A stretch of 64,000 nt of DNA from Paracoccaceae bacterium (lineage in GTDB: Bacteria > Pseudomonadota > Alphaproteobacteria > Rhodobacterales > Rhodobacteraceae), in the NCBI GenBank assembly GCA_022843025.1, contig JALHOL010000006.1, positions 1-64,000 on the forward strand, written 5' to 3'. The position numbers were made by a program, and so were the translations under genes. Positions 11,229 to 31,567 of the stretch are shown here, one piece after another. Below the pieces are notes generated by a model. It worked only from the letters and a program-made list of their open reading frames with translations. It was not told where the DNA came from and searched no databases. The number at the start of each line of letters is the position of its first letter. The stretch's first letter is position 1.

Positions 11229-11335
11229 GCCCCACCGCTACAACCAAACCGATGGCCTGCCAAGCGCAACTTTCGGCCGCGCGAACCGCGATTCGCGCAT
11301 GATGGTTAATCTTAAGAATCGTCCCAAAGCCCGTG

Positions 11336-11389
11336 CGCTGCGTGCATACGCCTGTCTGCACAGCCATCTGCACCGGCCGCTGCATCGCC
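11336..11389 (+). repeat. Copy 1 of duplicated 54-nt Cys-rich leader block
   Basis: 49 of 54 positions match the minus-strand block at 31452-31505 upstream of argC. The block contains four TGCA steps with spacings of 14, 12 and 12 bases. It encodes the start of the peptide at 11342. A 13-base match to part of the block (CCCGTCTGCACAG) recurs at 11464-11476. Confidence 0.75.
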
Positions 11390-11401
11390 AAATCCTCCTA
11401 A
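11342..11401 (+). CDS. Putative Cys-rich leader peptide of the PLP decarboxylase (19 aa)
   Basis: A GTG-initiated frame encodes [19 protein letters not shown] and ends with TAA 85 bases before the decarboxylase ATG. The first 14 codons are nearly the same as those of a frame upstream of argC (31499, minus strand). No good ribosome site precedes the GTG, so the frame may be leaderless, or the repeat may act as DNA or RNA rather than as a peptide. If translated, Cys (three codons) and Thr (three) dominate. It lies 113 bases from, and is divergent to, the cysS leader frame. Confidence 0.45.
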   Translation: MHTPVCTAICTGRCIAKSS

Positions 11402-11443: not shown

Positions 11444-11481
11444 CCCCCCGCCTGTTCAATTCACCCGTCTGCACAGGGGGG
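11444..11481 (+). promoter_or_regulatory. Hairpin that would mask the ribosome site of the PLP decarboxylase
   Basis: CCCCCC (11444-11449) can pair with GGGGGG (11476-11481), the ribosome-binding G-run six bases before the ATG at 11487. Alternatively CCTGT (11451-11455) pairs with ACAGG (11473-11477). The downstream arm includes the short repeat CCCGTCTGCACAG. A similar but weaker arrangement precedes argC (31424-31385). Confidence 0.4.
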
Positions 11482-15638: not shown

Positions 15639-16409
15639 TCAGCGCGCATCAAGCCGCAAAAGCCGCGCCCGAACCGGGGGAATCGCCGCGATTTCAACAG
15701 CGGTGAACACATGCAGCGTATCCAAATCGCGGTCCAGAACCGCATGATCGCTGACCCACCCCCCCATCGCCAGATAGCTGCGCAGCAGGGGCGGCATCTT
15801 CCCCAACGCCTGCTTCGGATCATGCGGCGCAGGCGCCAATGCCACCGTATCCACAGCCTTGCGTCCGGGCCGCTGGTCAGCCGGGCCGATATGCCCCGTC
15901 GCCAGCAGGGCCAAGGCATCCCGATGCGGTTCTGCCCCGACACCGTCAAAGGATGAACAGCCGAACATCACCGTTACCGCCTCGGCATCCACAATCCGCG
16001 TCAGCGCGGCCCAGGCCACGCGCAGCGCATCCGCGTCGCCCGCAGCAGGTGAAAGGCAGAATCGCCCGATCTCCAGCATGGGGGTCCGGCATCGGGCCAA
16101 GGGCGCCAGATCGTAGAACTGCGCGGAATAGCAATGCTCAAGCATCCAGGCCTGCCGGATCAGCATCAGGCGGCAGGTTCCCACAACCGCGCCCCCTGTT
16201 ATTGTTTCGATCAGAAGATGCTGGCACCGTTCGTCAAAGGCATCGCTGTCCAGCCCCTCGCACGCCTCCGATACGCGTCCTGCGCGGAATGCCATGTAAC
16301 GCAACCGCTGCGCGGCGCGTATATCTTCCGGGGACTCGGCCAAGCGGGCGCGAAAACGGCCTTTGCAGAACGGCAACACGGGTGCAGGCTCCTTGCCGCT
16401 TGGCGTCAC
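15639..16409 (-). CDS. olsB: L-ornithine N(alpha)-acyltransferase (ornithine lipid synthesis, first step)
   Basis: 256 aa GNAT-fold acyltransferase. It transfers a 3-hydroxyacyl group from acyl-ACP to ornithine, giving lyso-ornithine lipid for the phosphate-free membrane lipids of alphaproteobacteria. Family blocks visible are RLRYMAFRAG near residue 35, VGTCRLMLI near 75, EIGRFCLSPA near 110 and MPPLLRSYLAMGGWVSDHAV near 215. Initiation is at GTG behind CAGGT. No olsA lies next to it. It precedes the ABC-F gene in the same direction, so the two may share a transcript. Confidence 0.88.
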   Translation of the reverse strand: MTPSGKEPAPVLPFCKGRFRARLAESPEDIRAAQRLRYMAFRAGRVSEACEGLDSDAFDERCQHLLIETITGGAVVGTCRLMLIRQAWMLEHCYSAQFYDLAPLARCRTPMLEIGRFCLSPAAGDADALRVAWAALTRIVDAEAVTVMFGCSSFDGVGAEPHRDALALLATGHIGPADQRPGRKAVDTVALAPAPHDPKQALGKMPPLLRSYLAMGGWVSDHAVLDRDLDTLHVFTAVEIAAIPPVRARLLRLDAR

Positions 16410-16503
16410 ACCTGCGGCGAACTAGATATGAGGCCAGCCGAAAGCGGGACGCAAGCCCCCCACGCTTGCCGCGACGCCCCGCAAAACAGAAGGAAGACCA
16501 AAG

Positions 16504-16896
16504 ATGGACAAGGTTGTGAAATCGGATACCGAATGGCGGTCGCAACTGTCGGATCTCGCCTATCGGGTGACACGCAAGCATGCAACGGAACGCGCCTTCA
16601 CCCATGACGATTTTCCAAAGGCGGCGGGAACCTTCCGCTGCGTGTGCTGTGACGCGCCCCTTTTTGACGCGCGTACCAAGTTCGACAGCGGCACAGGCTG
16701 GCCCTCATTCTGGCAGCCGATCGATTCCGAAATGGTTGGCGAGCAGGAAGACCGCACCCTGTGGATGCGGCGGACCGAGGTGCATTGCAACCGATGCGAG
16801 GCGCATCTCGGCCACGTCTTCCCGGATGGCCCTGCGCCAACGGGGCTGCGCTATTGCATCAATGGCGTTGCGCTGACCTTCGAGGCGGAATCGTAA
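16504..16896 (+). CDS. msrB: Peptide-methionine (R)-S-oxide reductase
   Basis: 130 aa, single-domain MsrB. It reduces methionine-R-sulfoxide in oxidised proteins. The catalytic Cys118 is in RYCIN; the structural zinc is held by C46/C49 (CVCC) and C95/C98 (CNRC). The sequence [13 protein letters not shown] (about 60-72) is characteristic. There is no signal peptide, so it acts in the cytoplasm. It is divergent from olsB and is followed by a strong hairpin shared with the convergent bamE-like gene. Confidence 0.95.
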
Positions 16897-16930
16897 AGAA
16901 ACGATTAATCGTAAAGTTCTCGTTAAACGG

Positions 16931-16957
16931 AAAAGGGGCGCAGCTGTGCTGCGCCCC
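16931..16957 (-). terminator. Intrinsic terminator of the bamE-like gene
   Basis: GGGGCGCAGC (16935-16944) and GCTGCGCCCC (16948-16957) form a perfect 10-bp stem with a TGT loop. On the minus strand it is followed by TTTT, as needed for intrinsic termination. It also lies behind msrB on the plus strand. Confidence 0.85.
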
Positions 16958-16992
16958 TGAAATCACTCCGCCGAACAGCATTTAGCGGCCGA

Positions 16993-17475
16993 TCAATCCC
17001 CGGTAACGATGCCCGGCCCGATGCGTCCGAAACTGCCAAGCAGTTGCTGGATCACGCTCAGACCCTTCACGCTGGTTTCCGTCACACGCCGCGAAAGTGG
17101 CACGACCTTGCCCCGCTCCAACCCGAAGCGTTCGATGTTCTGAACCCGTCCCGCCTCGGTAAAGGTGATCGACACGACCTGGCGTTCGATCTCTTTCGGC
17201 TCGAAAGCACCGCGATAGGCCCAGCGGCTTTGGACATAGAACCAGCCCAGATCGTTCAGCAGACCCGAAGCCGTGGGTCGCCCGATCTTTTCGCTAACGG
17301 TTTCGCGCGTGTCCACGCCCACCTCGACCAGCGCCAACTCGTCGTCGGTCGGCACATAGCCATGGTTGCGATAGACCGTGGAACAGGCCGCAATGAGCAG
17401 GACCGCGCCAATCAGACCCAACCGGATTCCTCTGCCCACACCCGCCGAGGCCGCCATTTTGCCGAAGAAACTCAT
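16993..17475 (-). CDS. bamE: Outer-membrane assembly lipoprotein BamE/SmpA family
   Basis: 160 aa. A lipoprotein signal with lipobox LIAAC (Cys near residue 31) is followed by a SmpA/OmlA domain: VDTRETVSEKIGRPTASG is the conserved helix-turn, and WFYVQSRW the following strand. BamE is an accessory subunit of the beta-barrel assembly machinery at the inner face of the outer membrane. The C-terminal tail RRVTETSVKGLSVIQQLLGS is typical of the alphaproteobacterial version. It is divergent from yceD-rpmF. Confidence 0.88.
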   Translation of the reverse strand: MSFFGKMAASAGVGRGIRLGLIGAVLLIAACSTVYRNHGYVPTDDELALVEVGVDTRETVSEKIGRPTASGLLNDLGWFYVQSRWAYRGAFEPKEIERQVVSITFTEAGRVQNIERFGLERGKVVPLSRRVTETSVKGLSVIQQLLGSFGRIGPGIVTGD

Positions 17476-17701
17476 TCCGTTCCCTACCTGCCTCTGCCGC
17501 GCGAACCGCTCATCGAACTTGGTTGCCTTGTCATGCTACAGCACAACACGTATTGCAAAAAGTAACGGTCGCATGCGGCGCTTTTGTTCCGGCTTACAGA
17601 AGGACGGGCCACTGTTCAAGAATGGAACAGCCCCGACCAGGCCGGACCGGGCAGGAACATGCGGCAAAGACACCCCCAAACGCCGACCGGAGCCGTGCCA
17701 G

Positions 17702-18292
17702 ATGACCGAAACACCACCCCATGATCCGGCAGCACCCGCCCTGCACCACCCGCTGCGCACAGGAGCCCTGTCCCCACGCAAGCCCACGCGGTTCGACCTG
17801 CGCCCCGATGCACCCACCCGCGCGGCTATGGCGGCAGCCCTTGATCTGCTTGATCTGCCTGCCTTCCGCTTTCGCGGCGAACTCCGCCCTTCGGGTCGCA
17901 ACGATTATGTGCTGGAGGCTGAATTGACCGCCTCTGTCGTGCAGCCTTGCTCTGTAACACTCGCCCCGGTTCCAGCCACGATCACCGACACCGTCCGCCG
18001 CAGCTATCTGTCCAGCTGGCAAGAACCCGAAGGCGATGAGGTGGAAATGCCCGAGGATGACACGCAAGAACCGCTGCCCGAAGTGATCGACCTTGGCGCT
18101 GTGGCAATCGAAGCGCTGGCGCTTGCCCTACCGCTCTATCCGCGCGCGCCAGATGTGGCTTTGGGAGAGGCGGTTTTCGCCCCGCCCGGAAGCGAACCGC
18201 TGCGCGAAGCCGACCTCAAACCCTTCGCCGGTCTGGCCGCCCTTCGCGACCGCCTTGCCGCATCCGATGAAGGGCCGGAAAGCACGGAATAG
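17702..18292 (+). CDS. yceD: YceD/DUF177 family protein
   Basis: 196 aa. The DUF177 family is found almost always just before rpmF and is linked to 23S rRNA and L32 metabolism. Visible features are LVLEAELTASVVQPCSVTL-like strands (here residues about 75-95 with the conserved Cys) and the acidic loop DEVEMPEDD. The usual CxxC zinc pair is not obvious. The start at 17702 is chosen because a longer frame from 17378 runs through the bamE promoter. It is followed by rpmF after 160 bases. Confidence 0.88.
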   Translation: MTETPPHDPAAPALHHPLRTGALSPRKPTRFDLRPDAPTRAAMAAALDLLDLPAFRFRGELRPSGRNDYVLEAELTASVVQPCSVTLAPVPATITDTVRRSYLSSWQEPEGDEVEMPEDDTQEPLPEVIDLGAVAIEALALALPLYPRAPDVALGEAVFAPPGSEPLREADLKPFAGLAALRDRLAASDEGPESTE

Positions 18293-18452
18293 GCCCCAGC
18301 ACCGAAGCGCAAGAAAGGGGCTTGCGCCCGCACCAAATCCGGGTATTTTCCGCGCCTCATTCGATGGCTGGTACGGGCTCGCACGATAGGCGGGCAAACC
18401 GCTGATCGCAAAGCGAAATCAGGGGCATGTCCCCACTACCCGAGGTCGAGAC

Positions 18453-18659
18453 ATGGCTGTCCCGCAGAACCGAGTCACCCGTTCAAAGCGCAACATGCGC
18501 CGCGCACATGACGCCCTTGTTGCCGGCAATCCGCAGGAATGCTCCAACTGTGGCGAGCTGAAGCGCCCGCACCATGTGTGCAGCGCCTGCGGCCATTACG
18601 ACGCCCGCGAAGTCGTGGCATCCGTCAAGGAAGTCGATCTGGACGAGGACGCGGCGTAA
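18453..18659 (+). CDS. rpmF: 50S ribosomal protein L32
   Basis: 68 aa. It begins [20 protein letters not shown], the typical bL32 N-terminus, followed by a zinc ribbon with two CxxC pairs (CSNC and CSAC). It is a structural protein of the large subunit. Order yceD-rpmF-plsX-fabH is the conserved link between ribosome and fatty-acid synthesis genes in proteobacteria. Confidence 0.97.
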
Positions 18660-18683
18660 GCCGCCTCCAAGACGCCCAGCCCG

Positions 18684-19817
18684 ATGGCCAACGGACTTCA
18701 CACTCCGGCAACCGACGGCCCGCGCCGCATCGTGATTTCTGTTGACGCCATGGGTGGCGACAGAGGACCGGCAGCCGTCGTTGCCGGTCTTTCCCTATCT
18801 GCGGCTGCGCATCCGGATGTCGATTTCATCCTGCATGGCAATGACACCGAACTGACGCGGCTTGTTGAACGTGAAGCCCCCCTGAAGGGGCGCGTTACCG
18901 TGCGCCATGCAGACCGTGTGGTGTCCATGCAGGACAAGCCAAGCCATGTCATGCGGCATGGGGACGGCACCTCGATGTGGTCCTGCATCGACAGCATCAA
19001 GCAAGGCGAGGCGTCAGTGGCCGTGTCCTGCGGGAACACTGGCGCGCTTATGGCGATTGCCATGCTGCGCCTGCGCCGCCTGCCCGGCATCAACCGCCCT
19101 GCCATCGCAAGCCTTTGGCCGTCGCGCAATCCCGGCGGCTTCAACGTGATGCTCGACATGGGCGCTGACGTGAAGGCCGAGGCGGGCGATCTGCTACAAT
19201 TCGCTATGATGGGCGCGTCCTATGCCCGCAACGGGCTTGGCCTGACCCGTCCACGCGTGGGCCTGCTGAATGTGGGCACCGAAGAACACAAGGGACGCGC
19301 GGAGCTAAAGGAAGCGCATGAACTGCTTGGGCCTCAGGCCGAGGCGGGCGGCTTTGATTTCATCGGCTTTGTCGAAGGCAGCGATATTCCGTCAGACCGT
19401 GTCGATGTGATTGTGACAGACGGTTTCACCGGGAATGTCGCGCTGAAGACAGGCGAAGGTACAGCCAAACTGATTTCGGATTTCCTGCGCGAAGAATTCA
19501 ACGCTTCGGTCTTTTCGAGGCTCGCGGCGCTCTTTGCGCTCAGCACGTTGAAACGGTTACAAAAGCGGATGGATCCGCGCCGGGCGAACGGCGGCGTGTT
19601 CCTTGGTCTGAATGGAACTGTCGTGAAATCTCATGGTTCGGCGGATGCCACTGGCGTTGCCGCCGCCATTGGCCTTGCCCGGCAACTGGCCGCCGCCGGG
19701 TTCCAGGATCGCCTTGCCGCACGGGTTGCGTCCGCCGTGCGGGCGGGGCAGGATGCCGCGGCAGAAGCAACCCCGTCCGTTTCGGAACAGGGGACGGGAG
19801 GCGGGACCAAAGAATGA
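18684..19817 (+). CDS. plsX: Phosphate acyltransferase
   Basis: 377 aa. It converts acyl-ACP to acyl-phosphate, the donor for glycerol-3-phosphate acylation by PlsY. The N-terminal VISVDAMGGDRGP (about 16-28) and the central SCGNTGALMAIAMLRLRRLP block are the family signatures. The start follows rpmF by 24 bases. The stop overlaps the fabH start by four bases (ATGA), so the two are translationally coupled. Confidence 0.96.
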   Translation: MANGLHTPATDGPRRIVISVDAMGGDRGPAAVVAGLSLSAAAHPDVDFILHGNDTELTRLVEREAPLKGRVTVRHADRVVSMQDKPSHVMRHGDGTSMWSCIDSIKQGEASVAVSCGNTGALMAIAMLRLRRLPGINRPAIASLWPSRNPGGFNVMLDMGADVKAEAGDLLQFAMMGASYARNGLGLTRPRVGLLNVGTEEHKGRAELKEAHELLGPQAEAGGFDFIGFVEGSDIPSDRVDVIVTDGFTGNVALKTGEGTAKLISDFLREEFNASVFSRLAALFALSTLKRLQKRMDPRRANGGVFLGLNGTVVKSHGSADATGVAAAIGLARQLAAAGFQDRLAARVASAVRAGQDAAAEATPSVSEQGTGGGTKE

Positions 19818-20785
19818 CGATACGCGCCGTCGTAAAGGGCGTCGGGCATTATCTGCCCGAAAGGCTTGTCCCGAATTCGGAACTCGAAACTCTGGTGGAA
19901 ACCAGCGACGAATGGATCCGCACACGATCTGGCATTGAACGCCGTCATTTCGCGGCCGAAGGGCAGACGACATCCGACCTCGCCATTCGCGCCGCACAGG
20001 CCGCACTGGCGGATGCCGGGATGGCGGCTGATGATGTGGACGCAATCGTTCTTGCTACGTCGACCGCCGATCTGACCTTCCCTTCGGCTGCCACGATGGT
20101 TCAGGCCGGGCTGGGCATGACGCGCGGCTTTGCCTTTGACGTTCAGGCGGTTTGCGCAGGCTTCGTCTATGCCATGGCCAATGCCAATGCTCTGATCCTG
20201 TCTGGTCAGGCGAAGCGGATTCTCGTCATCGGGGCCGAGACGTTTTCAAAGCTGATGGATTGGTCGGATCGTTCCACCTGTGTGCTGTTCGGGGACGGGG
20301 CCGGGGCCGTGCTGCTTGAAGCCGTCGAAAGCGATGGCACCTCGGCAGACCGGGGCATCCTCGCCACCGACCTGCATTCCGACGGGCGGTTTCGCGATCT
20401 TCTTTACGTCGATGGCGGCGTTTCAACCGGCACAACTGGCTATCTGCGCATGCAGGGCAAGGAAGTATTCCGTCATGCCGTGGAAAAGCTGGCCGAAACG
20501 GCCCATACCGCACTGGAAAAGGTTGGCCTGACCAGCGGCGACGTCGATTGGATCGTTCCGCATCAGGCCAATATCCGGATCATTGAGGCCACCGCCAAGC
20601 GGATGCAGGTGCCGATGGACCGTGTGGTGGTCACGGTGCAGGATCACGGCAATACTTCCGCTGCCTCCATACCACTTGCCCTATCCGTCGGCAAAGCGCG
20701 CGGACAGATCAAACCCGGCGATCTGGTGGTGACCGAAGCGATCGGCGGGGGGTTGGCCTGGGGATCGGTCGTCCTGCGCTGGTAA
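19814..20785 (+). CDS. fabH: 3-oxoacyl-ACP synthase III
   Basis: 323 aa. It starts fatty-acid synthesis by condensing acetyl-CoA with malonyl-ACP. The catalytic triad is visible: Cys114 in QAVCAGF, His in VPHQANIRI and Asn in DHGNTSAASIP. The length is normal. It overlaps plsX by four bases and precedes ihfA by 97 bases, which suggests the integration-host-factor gene may have its own promoter. Confidence 0.97.
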   Translation: MTIRAVVKGVGHYLPERLVPNSELETLVETSDEWIRTRSGIERRHFAAEGQTTSDLAIRAAQAALADAGMAADDVDAIVLATSTADLTFPSAATMVQAGLGMTRGFAFDVQAVCAGFVYAMANANALILSGQAKRILVIGAETFSKLMDWSDRSTCVLFGDGAGAVLLEAVESDGTSADRGILATDLHSDGRFRDLLYVDGGVSTGTTGYLRMQGKEVFRHAVEKLAETAHTALEKVGLTSGDVDWIVPHQANIRIIEATAKRMQVPMDRVVVTVQDHGNTSAASIPLALSVGKARGQIKPGDLVVTEAIGGGLAWGSVVLRW

Positions 20786-20882
20786 GCCCCGTCCCTCGTC
20801 TGAAAGCAGCGGGACAAGTTGTTGATATTGACTCGGAATCCCAAACCGCTCACTCTGTCGTGAAACGCCCGGGGGGGATAGA

Positions 20883-21185
20883 ATGAGTGAGAAGACATTA
20901 ACCCGCATGGACCTGTCGGAAGCCGTGTTCCGTGAGGTCGGATTGTCGCGCAATGAAAGCGCGCTGCTTGTGGAAAGTGTGCTGCAACACATGTCGGACG
21001 CCTTGGCGTCGGGCGACACGGTCAAGATATCGTCCTTTGGCACCTTCTCGGTGCGTGACAAGTCGGCCCGTGTCGGCCGCAACCCCAAGACAGGGGATGA
21101 AGTGCCGATCAGCCCGCGCCGGGTTCTGACCTTTCGGCCATCTCACCTGATGAAAGACCGGGTCGCGGCAGGATCCAAGAAGTAA
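20883..21185 (+). CDS. ihfA: Integration host factor subunit alpha
   Basis: 100 aa HU/IHF-family DNA-bending protein. The beta-arm sequence [20 protein letters not shown] with the intercalating Pro and the following [12 protein letters not shown] are typical of IHF-alpha. The N-terminus [19 protein letters not shown] distinguishes it from HU. It forms a heterodimer with IHF-beta, whose gene is not in the window. It is followed 15 bases later by the merR gene in a conserved Rhodobacterales pair. Confidence 0.95.
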
Positions 21186-21200
21186 GGAGTTCGTCCGCCG

Positions 21201-22160
21201 ATGGACAAGTCGCCAGAGGCGTTTCGCACGATCAGCGAAGTGGCCGATTTCCTGGACACGCCCGCGCATGTTCTGCGCTTTTGGGAAAGCCGCTTTCCAC
21301 AGATCCGCCCGGTCAAGCGCGCCGGGGGGCGTCGGTATTATCGGCCGGGCGATGTGGCATTGCTGGCAGGGATCAAGAAACTGCTACATGACGAAGGCAT
21401 GACCATTCGGGGCGTACAGAAAATCCTGCGCGAACAAGGAATTAGGCATGTGGCGGGCCTTGCATCCGAAGATGCCGGCCCCCTGCTGGACGACGCCGAC
21501 ATTGAAGCGGTTCTCAGCGCCGAATACGGACCACGGGATCGGCTTGGTGAAGACGACAAGCCGTCCTCCGAGGCATTGCAAAGTGCTCAGATCATCTCAC
21601 TTGAGACGGCATTGAACCGGCAAGACACGGCGCGCGACACCAGCCCAATTCAACCCGAGCTTTGGCCCCCTGCCCCGCCGGAAAGCCCCGCGACGGATGC
21701 GCAGGCCTGGCCCGGCGACCCGGGCGATGCGCTACCGGCCCCGGAAGTGACAGACCCCGCAGCGCAGGTCGGCGCTGACAGTGCTGAACCCGCATCTGCA
21801 ACGGCTGAAGCGCCGTTGGATGCGGATCAAGATAGCGAACCGCCCCCTGCCGAGACGCCATTGGACAGCGCCGATTTGCCGGATGCTGATCCATCGGAAG
21901 CCAATGCGGGCGTATCAGAGCCTGTCAGCGAAGAAGCATCGAACAGCCGTCAGGACGCTGCATCCGATTCGTCATCCACTTCCGCGTCGGACGAAGCAGA
22001 TGGTGGGGAAACCGTCGAAACAGCCACCATTGCCGCGATGCTGCGGCGGACCTCAGCCGCAGACGTATCGGCAGTCCAGCCTCAGTTGATCCAACTGCGC
22101 GACCGTCTGATCGAACTGCGGGGACGGGTGGCCGAAGCAGCGCGGCGCAAGGCCAAGTGA
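21201..22160 (+). CDS. MerR-family transcriptional regulator with long acidic tail
   Basis: 319 aa. The N-terminal winged helix (residues about 8-75, [20 protein letters not shown] then [11 protein letters not shown]) is a MerR DNA-binding domain. Residues about 130-275 are a low-complexity Pro/Ala/Asp/Glu/Ser stretch without predicted fold, and a short basic, Leu-rich C-terminal segment ([20 protein letters not shown]) could be a coiled coil. No metal or drug ligand Cys motif is seen. The gene follows ihfA in the same operon; its target is unknown. Confidence 0.88.
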
Positions 22161-22223
22161 TCGCCGGATCCATGTGCTTTCCTGCTTGCCCCTGCCCGGA
22201 ATATCAGTATGTATCCCGCCTGT

Positions 22224-22301
22224 CGGGCCGTGGCGCAGCCTGGTTAGCGCGTCCGTCTGGGGGGCGGAAGGTCGTGAGTTCGAATCTCACCGGCCCGACC
22301 A
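22224..22301 (+). tRNA. tRNA-Pro (anticodon GGG), CCA encoded
   Basis: The acceptor arms CGGGCCG (22224-22230) and CGGCCCG (22291-22297) pair perfectly and are followed by A and the genomic CCA. The D-arm GGCGCAGCCTGGTTAGCGC, the anticodon loop CT-GGG-GG closed by TCCGT/GCGGA (one G-T wobble), and the T-loop GTTCGAATC are all present. It stands between merR and dcd and is followed by a hairpin terminator. Confidence 0.96.
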
Positions 22302-22308
22302 ATACCGA

Positions 22309-22343
22309 AACCGCCCGCCTGCCTAACGGCAGTGCGGGCGGTT
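22309..22343 (+). terminator. Hairpin terminator after tRNA-Pro
   Basis: AACCGCCCGC (22309-22318) pairs with GCGGGCGGTT (22334-22343); an inner TGCC/GGCA pair extends the stem. Only a short T-run follows. It separates the tRNA from dcd. Confidence 0.65.
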
Positions 22344-22374
22344 CCGTTTCAGCACTGTGCCGGGGGATCGCGAC

Positions 22375-23451
22375 ATGATGGCGAAGGGTGTTCTTCCCTC
22401 ACAGGCGCTGCGCGCGTTGATTGCCGACAGCGCGATCTCTGCCAGCCTGCCTATCACCGATGCACAGATACAACCGGCCAGCCTTGATCTGCGGCTGGGC
22501 ACCATTGCCTATCGCGTGCGGGCATCCTTTCTGGCTGGTCAGGGCCGGAAAGTGGCCGACCGCCTGGCGGAATTCGAAATGCATCGGGTCGACCTCACCG
22601 CCGGTGCGGTGCTGGAAAAGGGCTGCGTCTATGTCATTCCTCTGATGGAGGGCCTTGCCCTGCCTGCCGGGGTGACGGCGGTGGCAAATGCAAAAAGCTC
22701 CACCGGGCGGTTGGATCTGCTAACGCGGACGATCACCGACGGTGGAACCGAATTCGACCGTATCCCCGAAGGATATAGCGGCCCGCTCTATGCCGAGGTC
22801 TGCCCGAAAAGCTTTTCAGTCTTGGTACGGCCGGGGATGCGGTTGAACCAGATCCGCTTTCGTTCGGGGCAGGCTGTGCTGGATGACGCCGAACTGACGC
22901 AGCTTCACGCGCTACAGCCCCTTGTGTCAGGTCAGGCGGTGATTTCCGAAGGGCTTGGCTTTTCTGTCGACCTGCGCCCGGCGGCGGGTGATCTGGTGGG
23001 TTTCAGGGCCAAGCCCCATACCGGAGTGGTCGATCTTGATCGCATCGGCCATTATCCAGCAGCCGATTTCTGGGAAGAAATTCATACGACCGAGGGGCGG
23101 ATCATTCTGGATCCCGGTGCCTTCTATATTCTGGTCAGCCGCGAGGCGGTCACCATACCCCCTGATTATGCCGCCGAGATGGCGCCCTATCTGGCGATGG
23201 TGGGTGAGTTCCGGGTGCATTATGCAGGCTTCTTCGACCCCGGTTTCGGCCATGCCGATGCGGGCGGGGCCGGATCGCGCGGTGTGCTTGAGGTGCGCTG
23301 CCATGAGGCGCCTTTCGTGCTGGAGCACGGGCAGGTGGTGGGGCGGCTGGTTTACGAACGGATGTCGGAACGTCCGGACACCCTTTACGGGCAGGCCATC
23401 AAATCCAACTATCAGGGTCAGGGCCTGAAACTGGCAAAGCAGTTCAAGTAG
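22375..23451 (+). CDS. dcd: 2'-deoxycytidine 5'-triphosphate deaminase (two-domain alphaproteobacterial form)
   Basis: 358 aa, about twice the usual Dcd length. Both halves carry dUTPase/Dcd-fold sequence: the first has QPASLDLRLG near 30 and NAKSSTGRLD with the PEGYSGPLYAEVCP strand near 120-145; the second has VGEFRVHYAGFFDPGFG near 280. This tandem fused version is usual in alphaproteobacteria and supplies dUMP precursors by dCTP deamination. The start is the ATG at 22375 behind CGGGGG; a GTG at 22357 is also in frame. Confidence 0.85.
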   Translation: MMAKGVLPSQALRALIADSAISASLPITDAQIQPASLDLRLGTIAYRVRASFLAGQGRKVADRLAEFEMHRVDLTAGAVLEKGCVYVIPLMEGLALPAGVTAVANAKSSTGRLDLLTRTITDGGTEFDRIPEGYSGPLYAEVCPKSFSVLVRPGMRLNQIRFRSGQAVLDDAELTQLHALQPLVSGQAVISEGLGFSVDLRPAAGDLVGFRAKPHTGVVDLDRIGHYPAADFWEEIHTTEGRIILDPGAFYILVSREAVTIPPDYAAEMAPYLAMVGEFRVHYAGFFDPGFGHADAGGAGSRGVLEVRCHEAPFVLEHGQVVGRLVYERMSERPDTLYGQAIKSNYQGQGLKLAKQFK

Positions 23452-23457
23452 ACGGTC

Positions 23458-23670
23458 CTATTTCCAGAACCTACGCCCGATCTTCATCATATCATTCATC
23501 CGCTTCTGGGTAGCTTTGGTCTGATCGGCCCGGCGGCGGGAATCTTGCTTTGTCATGCCCGCATCACTCGGGGACTTGCCCATGCGGTTGATGCCCTTCT
23601 TCACGGCAGTTCCCAGTAGCTGACGCAGCAACCTGCCGCCCATGCCTTGCAACAATCTGTTCAGGTCCAT
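23458..23670 (-). CDS. Small basic conserved hypothetical protein
   Basis: 70 aa, rich in Lys, Arg, Gly and Met, with no signal peptide or membrane helix. The sequence MGGRLLRQLLGTAVKKGINR suggests an amphipathic helix, and the C-terminal half is highly charged. It lies 16 bases downstream of scpB on the same strand and probably belongs to that operon. I do not recognise a named domain. Its separate reading frame between two well-defined genes and the correct spacing support it as real. Confidence 0.65.
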   Translation of the reverse strand: MDLNRLLQGMGGRLLRQLLGTAVKKGINRMGKSPSDAGMTKQDSRRRADQTKATQKRMNDMMKIGRRFWK

Positions 23671-23686
23671 CGCACGCTTCCTTTAC

Positions 23687-24334
23687 TCAATCTTCAAACA
23701 GTTCACTTTGCCCGGCGAGGGTTTCTTCTTCCTCATCTGGGGATTGAATTCCGCCCGGCAAGGGCCTGTTGTCCAAAAGCCCTGCCGCGCGCAGTTCCTT
23801 CAGCCCCGGAAGATCGCGGGCGGATTCCAAGCCGAAGTGATCAAGGAACTGTTCCGTCACCACAAACGTCACAGGCCGCCCTGGCGTCATGCGGCGGCGG
23901 CCAAGCCGGATCCACTCCAGTTCCAGAAGCTGGTCCACCGTGCCGCGCGACACGGCGACGCCGCGGATTTCCTCGATCTCGGCCCGGGTGACGGGCTGGT
24001 GATAGGCGACAATGGCCAGTGTTTCGATGGCGGCGCGGGACAGCTTGCGCTGTTCCACGGTTTCCTTTTGCATCAGATGGCCAAGATCGGCCGCCGTGCG
24101 AAAGGCATAGGCATCCCCCACGCGTACCAGATGCACGCCGCGCCCTTCATAGCGTTTGCGCAGATAGACCAATGCCTCGGCCGGATCGCAGCCGTGCGGC
24201 ATGCGCGCCACCAGTTCGGCAAGCGTCACAGGTTCGGCAGAGGCGAAAAGGATCGCTTCTACCATACGCTCCTGCTCGGCCATCGGGGGGGCCTCGAACA
24301 GGCTGCGTTCGATGGGTTCTTGCGTACCGGTCAT
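23687..24334 (-). CDS. scpB: Segregation and condensation protein B
   Basis: 215 aa. ScpB is the winged-helix partner of ScpA and SMC in chromosome condensation. The family block LSRAAIETLAIVAYHQPVTR followed by AEIEEIRGVAVSRGTVDQLL is clear in the middle. The start MTGTQEPIERSLFE overlaps the scpA stop by four bases (ATGA); a longer frame upstream is inside scpA. The acidic C-terminal tail SPDEEEETLAGQSELFED is species-variable. Confidence 0.94.
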   Translation of the reverse strand: MTGTQEPIERSLFEAPPMAEQERMVEAILFASAEPVTLAELVARMPHGCDPAEALVYLRKRYEGRGVHLVRVGDAYAFRTAADLGHLMQKETVEQRKLSRAAIETLAIVAYHQPVTRAEIEEIRGVAVSRGTVDQLLELEWIRLGRRRMTPGRPVTFVVTEQFLDHFGLESARDLPGLKELRAAGLLDNRPLPGGIQSPDEEEETLAGQSELFED

Positions 24335-31451: not shown

Positions 31452-31505
31452 GGCCGTGCAGCGCGCGGTGCAGATGGCTGTGCAGACGGGCGTATGCACG
31501 CAGCG
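31452..31505 (-). repeat. Copy 2 of duplicated 54-nt Cys-rich leader block (argC leader)
   Basis: This matches the plus-strand block at 11336-11389 in 49 of 54 positions. It starts CGCTGC, then GTG at 31499 opens the frame [18 protein letters not shown], which stays in phase with argC and reaches the argC ATG after 40 codons without a stop. TGCA steps are spaced 14, 12 and 12 bases as in copy 1. Whether it is translated as a separate leader, as an N-terminal extension, or acts as a nucleic-acid element is open. Confidence 0.7.
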
Positions 31506-31567
31506 AACGCGGGTGGAGAAGGTTGTTAACGGTTTATTGTGGTTTCGGCGCTGGCGGAGCGCCCATG

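Follow-up and report, generated by a model that had tools for sequence, protein, structure and literature searches.

The window, by which we mean the whole 64,000-nucleotide stretch of DNA analysed here, contains two short blocks (11336–11389 and the reverse complement of 31452–31505) that match without gaps at 49/54 positions. The neighbour of copy 1 is a gene for a pyridoxal-dependent decarboxylase by Pfam (PF00282; 11487–12866, plus strand), and that of copy 2 is an argC-type semialdehyde dehydrogenase gene (PF01118 and PF22698; 30351–31379, minus strand). What might such a pair do? An earlier note had proposed a duplicated or mobile regulatory cassette, possibly encoding a leader peptide, that links two amino-acid pathways.

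A dispersed family of intergenic arrays

The note was right to call the blocks duplicated, since they are two of about 84 intergenic copies in a 3.9-Mb Rhodobacterales genome. A BLAST search of the window's own genome (G000) with a 101-base query around copy 1 returned 41 matches, and a sequence-only profile (R1), built from 41 copies of the window's species, found 84 places in G000; the closed genome G061, from the same species, yielded 83. Such numbers, well beyond what chance would give, make this a large dispersed family. The R1 counts per genome may be lower bounds (to be taken as "at least"), above all in other unit dialects, because at most 150 candidates were scored per genome and the profile was built from this species. 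Analyses of context cover 81/84 copies, the three weakest being left out.

The core of the element spans about 59 nt and comprises three direct 12-nt units and a further unit, GTNNNNAC, followed by GCAGCG and often by a GTTAA motif (GTTAA/TTAAC in 57/81 copies). On what we call the GTGCAG strand, the core in this species reads GTGCAG-N6-GTGCAG-N6-GTGCAG-N6-GTATGCAC-GCAGCG or a near variant. The fourth unit occurs in two main states at one position, either GTATGCAC (sub-type A, 40/81 copies) or its exact reverse complement GTGCATAC (sub-types B and C, with 23 and 18 copies, which differ in the sequence after this unit). A unit that is found in either orientation at one place is as expected of a double-stranded site. 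Many copies have GTTAAGGTTAACG or a related sequence on the right of the core, and TTAA(GG|CC)TTAA lies within 56 nt of the core in 18/81 copies, compared with two occurrences in 400 kb sampled from G061 with elements unmasked.

Both window copies are profile matches of sub-type A. The core of copy 1 occupies 11332–11390 with its GTGCAG strand on the minus strand, which is also the G-rich strand of its flanks, and GTTAATCTTAAG at 11305–11316 (minus) may be a degenerate version of the TTAA-GG-TTAA motif seen right of the core in many copies. The core of copy 2 occupies 31452–31509 with its GTGCAG strand on the plus strand, and a GTTAAC motif follows on its right at 31525–31530 (plus). The recurrence of CCCGTCTGCACAG described earlier was confirmed, both at 11464 and, on the opposite strand, inside copy 2. 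The former (11464–11476, minus) stands alone and may be a stray unit; in alignments inspected by eye it is present in G061, almost present in G001 and missing from the other aligned relatives.

Some copies occur in closely spaced pairs. Same-direction doublets about 115–117 nt apart were seen at L288, L296 and L298 in G002, at L172 in G010 and at L031 in G000, which suggests that a full unit of about 116 nt was duplicated locally in tandem. The element pairs at L294 and L295 are about 150 nt apart.

Within the genomes searched the family is clade-specific. Across 394 genomes, as a rule one per genus, the 12-nt pattern occurred 114 times in G000, 24 times in G002 and 0–22 times in the other 392 (the highest being G173 with 22, G293 with 13 and G131 with 12). 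Over the same set a second model (R2), applied with stricter filters to the best 11 candidates per genome, matched strongly in just two genomes, G000 and G002. In eight more it gave one or two weaker matches each, the best in G131 (32.8 bits, E 2.3e-7), and most of these weak loci may be coding, as seven of eight lie in open stretches of 185–722 codons; the eighth, L307, lies in one of 112. Further copies in relatives, which the note had named as a check, are present in the genus (R1 matches 11/19 genomes, G000 included), with only weak matches elsewhere in the family Rhodobacteraceae. A scan of named genomes with the exact pattern yielded 56 stretches in all, with five each in Rhodobacter (now Paragemmobacter) kunshanensis HX-7-19 and Rhodobacter sp. 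BC.021, four in one uncultured Rhodobacteraceae MAG and one or two per other record. A blastn search with copy 2 gave no match that would indicate carriage on known plasmids or phages, although records nearest this genome may be left out of that search. Our literature search returned no title or available abstract describing this element. At L307, around position 1500 in G295 (another genus), an array of TGTGCAGCAGTT, TGTGCAGCAAAA and TGTGCAGCAAAT at 12-nt spacing lies in a stretch that lacks a long open frame; it is possibly a distant relative or an unrelated repressor site.

Positional stability and species dialects

The copies are old in position. Between G000 and G061, 81/84 could be paired by order and strand (78/84 by coordinates with a 12-kb tolerance), and two of the three unpaired copies have a counterpart with a different score at the expected place. 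The mobility suggested in the note thus leaves no recent sign, given this stability in a second genome of the species. Among the best-scoring element loci of relatives, which are not a random sample and exclude L170, L097, L087 and L098 as weak or duplicate, 49/61 lie at the spot of a G000 copy, 11 are without a homologous element locus in our set and one was unplaced; when eight loci fetched via argC or the decarboxylase are set aside, 41/53 lie at a shared spot. Two paired sites (G000:C4:363477 with G061:444837, and G000:C5:329863 with G061:779278) occupy the same place with clearly different model scores, which suggests recent array change.

At the argC spot, alignment by eye places the element in 11 genomes of the genus and finds it absent from seven. 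Identity of argC is 90–99% to family-bearing genomes with a full argC hit and 85–87% to genomes without the family, as would be seen if the family-bearing genomes formed one clade. The gap from the preceding stop to argC, measurable in 9/18 genomes, is 187–211 nt where the element is present (five genomes) and 60–63 nt where it is absent (four), so that about 125 nt appears to have been gained or lost here.

In our gene calls, made with a purpose-built codon-usage caller and not a standard one, 78/81 copies lie between genes, in 32 convergent, 36 tandem and 10 divergent gaps; every gap of at least 60 nt at these loci, with the element gaps counted, gives totals of 47, 113 and 61, respectively. 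Copies come after a gene end on the GTGCAG strand in 53/81 cases, and on the G061 chromosome they are evenly spread (KS p 0.89; median gap 43 kb). Copies L033, L039 and L145 are inside called genes, where L039 and L145 can be read as VQxx tetrapeptide repeats, and the copy at L018 adjoins a short ParA/MipZ-like ORF.

The units themselves are species-specific and uniform within a species, while the 12-nt spacing is constant. The unit is GTGCAG in G000; G002 and most of the G010 copies examined carry TGTGCCCTGTTT-TGTGCCGNNTTT-TGTGCAGCAAAC-TGTGGGCAC, G008 has GTGGCCAC as its fourth unit, and G006 has GTACATAC. The first unit of G002 is exactly TGTGCCCTGTTT in 21/27 copies, and the spacer bases have thus been homogenised too. 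Such dialects must arise either from a binding protein whose specificity drifts or from sequence conversion among copies.

Orientation with the replication strand and its explanations

In 79/81 copies (binomial p 3e-21) the GTGCAG strand coincides with the G-rich strand, as judged over some 4.5 kb of surrounding sequence. This polarity holds regardless of gene direction, with 37/38 copies conforming where the flanking genes are mainly opposed and 41/42 where they are co-directed; the exceptions, L018 and L142, have it on the C-rich strand. Nine other species show the same orientation in 43/44 distinct copies from among the best-scoring hits (45/46 profile hits, less a double-counted element, L097/L152, and the weak L076 hit). 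In G002, using its own unit dialect, 26/27 copies are on the G-rich strand, four of these loci overlapping the nine-species set. The G-rich strand is usually the leading strand, for which GC skew serves here as a proxy.

The window itself contains a change of skew sign, from minus to plus, computed to lie between copies 1 and 2 at 16000–24000; near 20 kb the value rises from roughly −0.2 to roughly +0.15, and the flanking copies accordingly face opposite ways. An origin of replication was rejected for this interval, as DnaA-box-like words are at chance level, and dnaA was not found among the ten genes scanned in it. The change is perhaps an inversion boundary rather than an origin. On G061 coordinates, a split into two arms with two breakpoints explains 67/83 strands, while the best of 300 shuffles reached 61. 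Within the arms, twenty sampled G061 stretches revealed skew of the inverted sign, and this may explain part of the copies that fall outside the two-arm split.

Because the elements are oriented with the replication strand, irrespective of the genes, their most probable role is a polar one in replication or segregation. We tentatively favour the reading that they are polar binding sites for a putative protein in one of these processes, as opposed to a two-gene amino-acid switch. The protein, its reading of direction and its role are what we infer here: the elements would be double-stranded sites of a sequence-specific protein that binds head to tail on the direct units, hence reading direction, and that may serve a polar step such as translocase guidance or one-way fork passage. 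Its specificity would have drifted between species with the sites following, and sites would be retained near gene ends because they do least harm there to promoters and coding sequence. In favour of this reading we count the polarity in all three sets of copies, the opposed copies across the window's skew change, the shared spots (49/61), the even spread on G061, the units that change in step at constant 12-nt spacing, and the fourth unit in both orientations. Against it we count the orientation expected from composition alone (about 66/81, below), the two C-rich copies, a two-arm split that fits just 67/83, and spacer homogenisation in G002, which copying explains equally well. A rise in density toward the terminus, like that of AIMS, was also not seen on G061, where origin and terminus were not located. 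A larger claim, that the roughly 84 tandem-unit sites form a new clade-specific polar chromosome code, with a protein acting directionally on forks or translocation and fast co-evolution giving rise to sister-species dialects, would at present be rather unlikely.

Rated nearly as high as polar protein sites is an old dispersed repeat without chromosome function, inserted on one strand. This quite conceivable course of events would involve ancestral spread via single-stranded DNA and later homogenisation, by conversion or by re-copying; direction would have been fixed because the spreading process acted on the single-stranded lagging-strand template. The length gained or lost at argC, the G002 doublets, the homogenised spacers (21/27) and the low share of divergent gaps among the 78 intergenic copies (10) all fit such a history. 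However, a Y1/RAYT-type transposase scored above cut-off in 0/19 genomes of the genus (one match below cut-off was in the element-bearing G008), folding of the aligned copies gave no conserved hairpin, and inspection by eye showed no terminal inverted repeats. The arrays have, moreover, outlived neutral decay, since their positions are nearly fixed within the species (81/84) and largely kept across species.

An ordinary transcription-factor regulon, in which polarity is a by-product of strong strand composition, is unlikely. Composition alone predicts about 66/81 copies on the G-rich strand if these arose independently, and some G-rich octamers reach 90–96% polarity here. The word GTGCAG itself has a G-rich-strand bias of just 383:211 in 660 kb of oriented sequence with own elements excluded (L009–L046, L107–L146 and the G061 stretches L259–L278, in the last of which elements are unmasked). 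The observed 79/81 nevertheless exceeds the composition expectation (p 1e-5), a null that is harsh because it treats members of a single family as if they had arisen independently; for G002 alone the excess is not significant (26 observed, 24.3 of 27 expected). In addition, just 37 of the genes flanking the 81 copies have their start 170 nt or less from an element, and 53/81 copies come after a gene end on their own strand. Pfam scans of 30 of these 37 genes, three of which had no match, revealed no common pathway; they include a sulfotransferase, ABC proteins, triosephosphate isomerase, cytochrome bd, NDK and SAICAR synthetase. Given this diversity an amino-acid pathway regulon was rejected, and the proposal that the blocks link two such pathways finds no support, the consistency of downstream genes having been one of the checks named in the note.

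Less probable again is an RNA element of 3′ untranslated regions, acting as a processing, stability or sponge site. It would suit the convergent gaps, in which 27/32 copies are nearer the stop of the GTGCAG-strand gene (median 37 versus 106 nt). Orientation nevertheless tracks the replication strand and not the genes, copies between tandem genes being co-directed in 21 cases and opposed in 17, and in some copies, for example L013, hairpin-plus-T stretches are visible by eye before the element. A structured RNA was rejected: RNAalifold returned four invariant pairs and no covariation, and Rfam gave no match for copy 1, nor one at gathering scores anywhere near copies 1 or 2.

The original proposal of a leader peptide or attenuator cassette controlling biosynthetic genes is now very improbable, with the start codon GTG at its place in 40/81 copies and missing from 41 (40 without the 8-mer and one with GCG). 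The frames that had prompted it are real: copy 1 opens with GTG at 11342 and stops after 19 codons, copy 2 opens at 31499 and runs in phase into argC for 382 codons, each toward a metabolic gene, and among the element-bearing genomes read correctly at argC, G000, G061, G005 and G010 keep the frame open and in phase. In G001, however, it has lost its phase and in G017 it meets a stop; across the 41 copies with the 8-mer, open-frame lengths are scattered from 13 to 382 codons, and of the 13 that have a co-oriented downstream gene three read into it in frame. Neither is there a conserved short ORF before co-regulated genes, the 30 promoter-side genes sharing no pathway. Of the forms proposed for the regulatory cassette, the protein-binding site may still apply.

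Comparison with known chromosomal sites

Several known systems share some of these features. The Tus/Ter and RTP/Ter fork traps usually comprise some ten sites centred on the terminus; like the reading favoured here they involve polar double-stranded protein sites with one direction relative to forks, whereas the element has about 84 sites spread chromosome-wide. Plasmid or RctB-type iterons and BldC-type operators are direct repeats at roughly one helical turn that are bound head to tail. The element has the same kind of spacing, but those repeats are at one or a few loci and the element is at about 84. REP/BIME sequences are short intergenic repeats, imperfect palindromes in many copies, often after gene ends, and are associated with RAYT transposases. 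The element is likewise short, intergenic, numerous and often found after gene ends, but the aligned copies have no conserved hairpin and the genus no Y1 transposase above cut-off. REP/RAYT was rejected on this basis, the same search being positive in 5/14 control genomes.

KOPS (FtsK-orienting polar sequences) are short G-rich words of the GGGNAGGG type on the leading strand, and their reader, FtsK-gamma, co-varies with the motif. This word is in 0/81 cores on either strand, and has itself a G-rich-strand bias of 185:75 in the 660 kb. The FtsK-gamma helix CSTSYIQRKLGIGYNKAARLVEQMEE is identical in 11/11 element-bearing genomes despite their differing units, and FtsK-gamma is thus unlikely to be the reader. 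Few long elements known to us are both distributed chromosome-wide and so strongly polar with respect to replication. AIMS (architecture imparting sequences) are dispersed, leading-strand-biased sites that are similar within a clade, and consist of 8-bp words with at least 96 copies each by the E. coli criterion, increasing toward the terminus (PMC5993296). The element family resembles them in being dispersed over many sites with a leading-strand bias (79/81, with GC skew as the proxy), but is an array of about 59 nt in about 84 copies that are evenly spread on G061. Long, clade-specific, replication-polar and position-conserved arrays with species dialects contrast with KOPS and AIMS as to length, number and reader; what sets them apart from REP is structure and transposase.

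The family bears on how dispersed short sequences can change in step between species yet stay in place. As a resource it offers 11 genomes, of which one is closed and another consists of three contigs; they use at least four unit dialects at shared positions, which should allow protein co-evolution and copying to be separated directly. One further word emerged from the same 660 kb: the octamer GGCGAGGG, found in 0/81 cores, has a G-rich-strand bias of 136:6 and is a candidate KOPS-like word of this genus.
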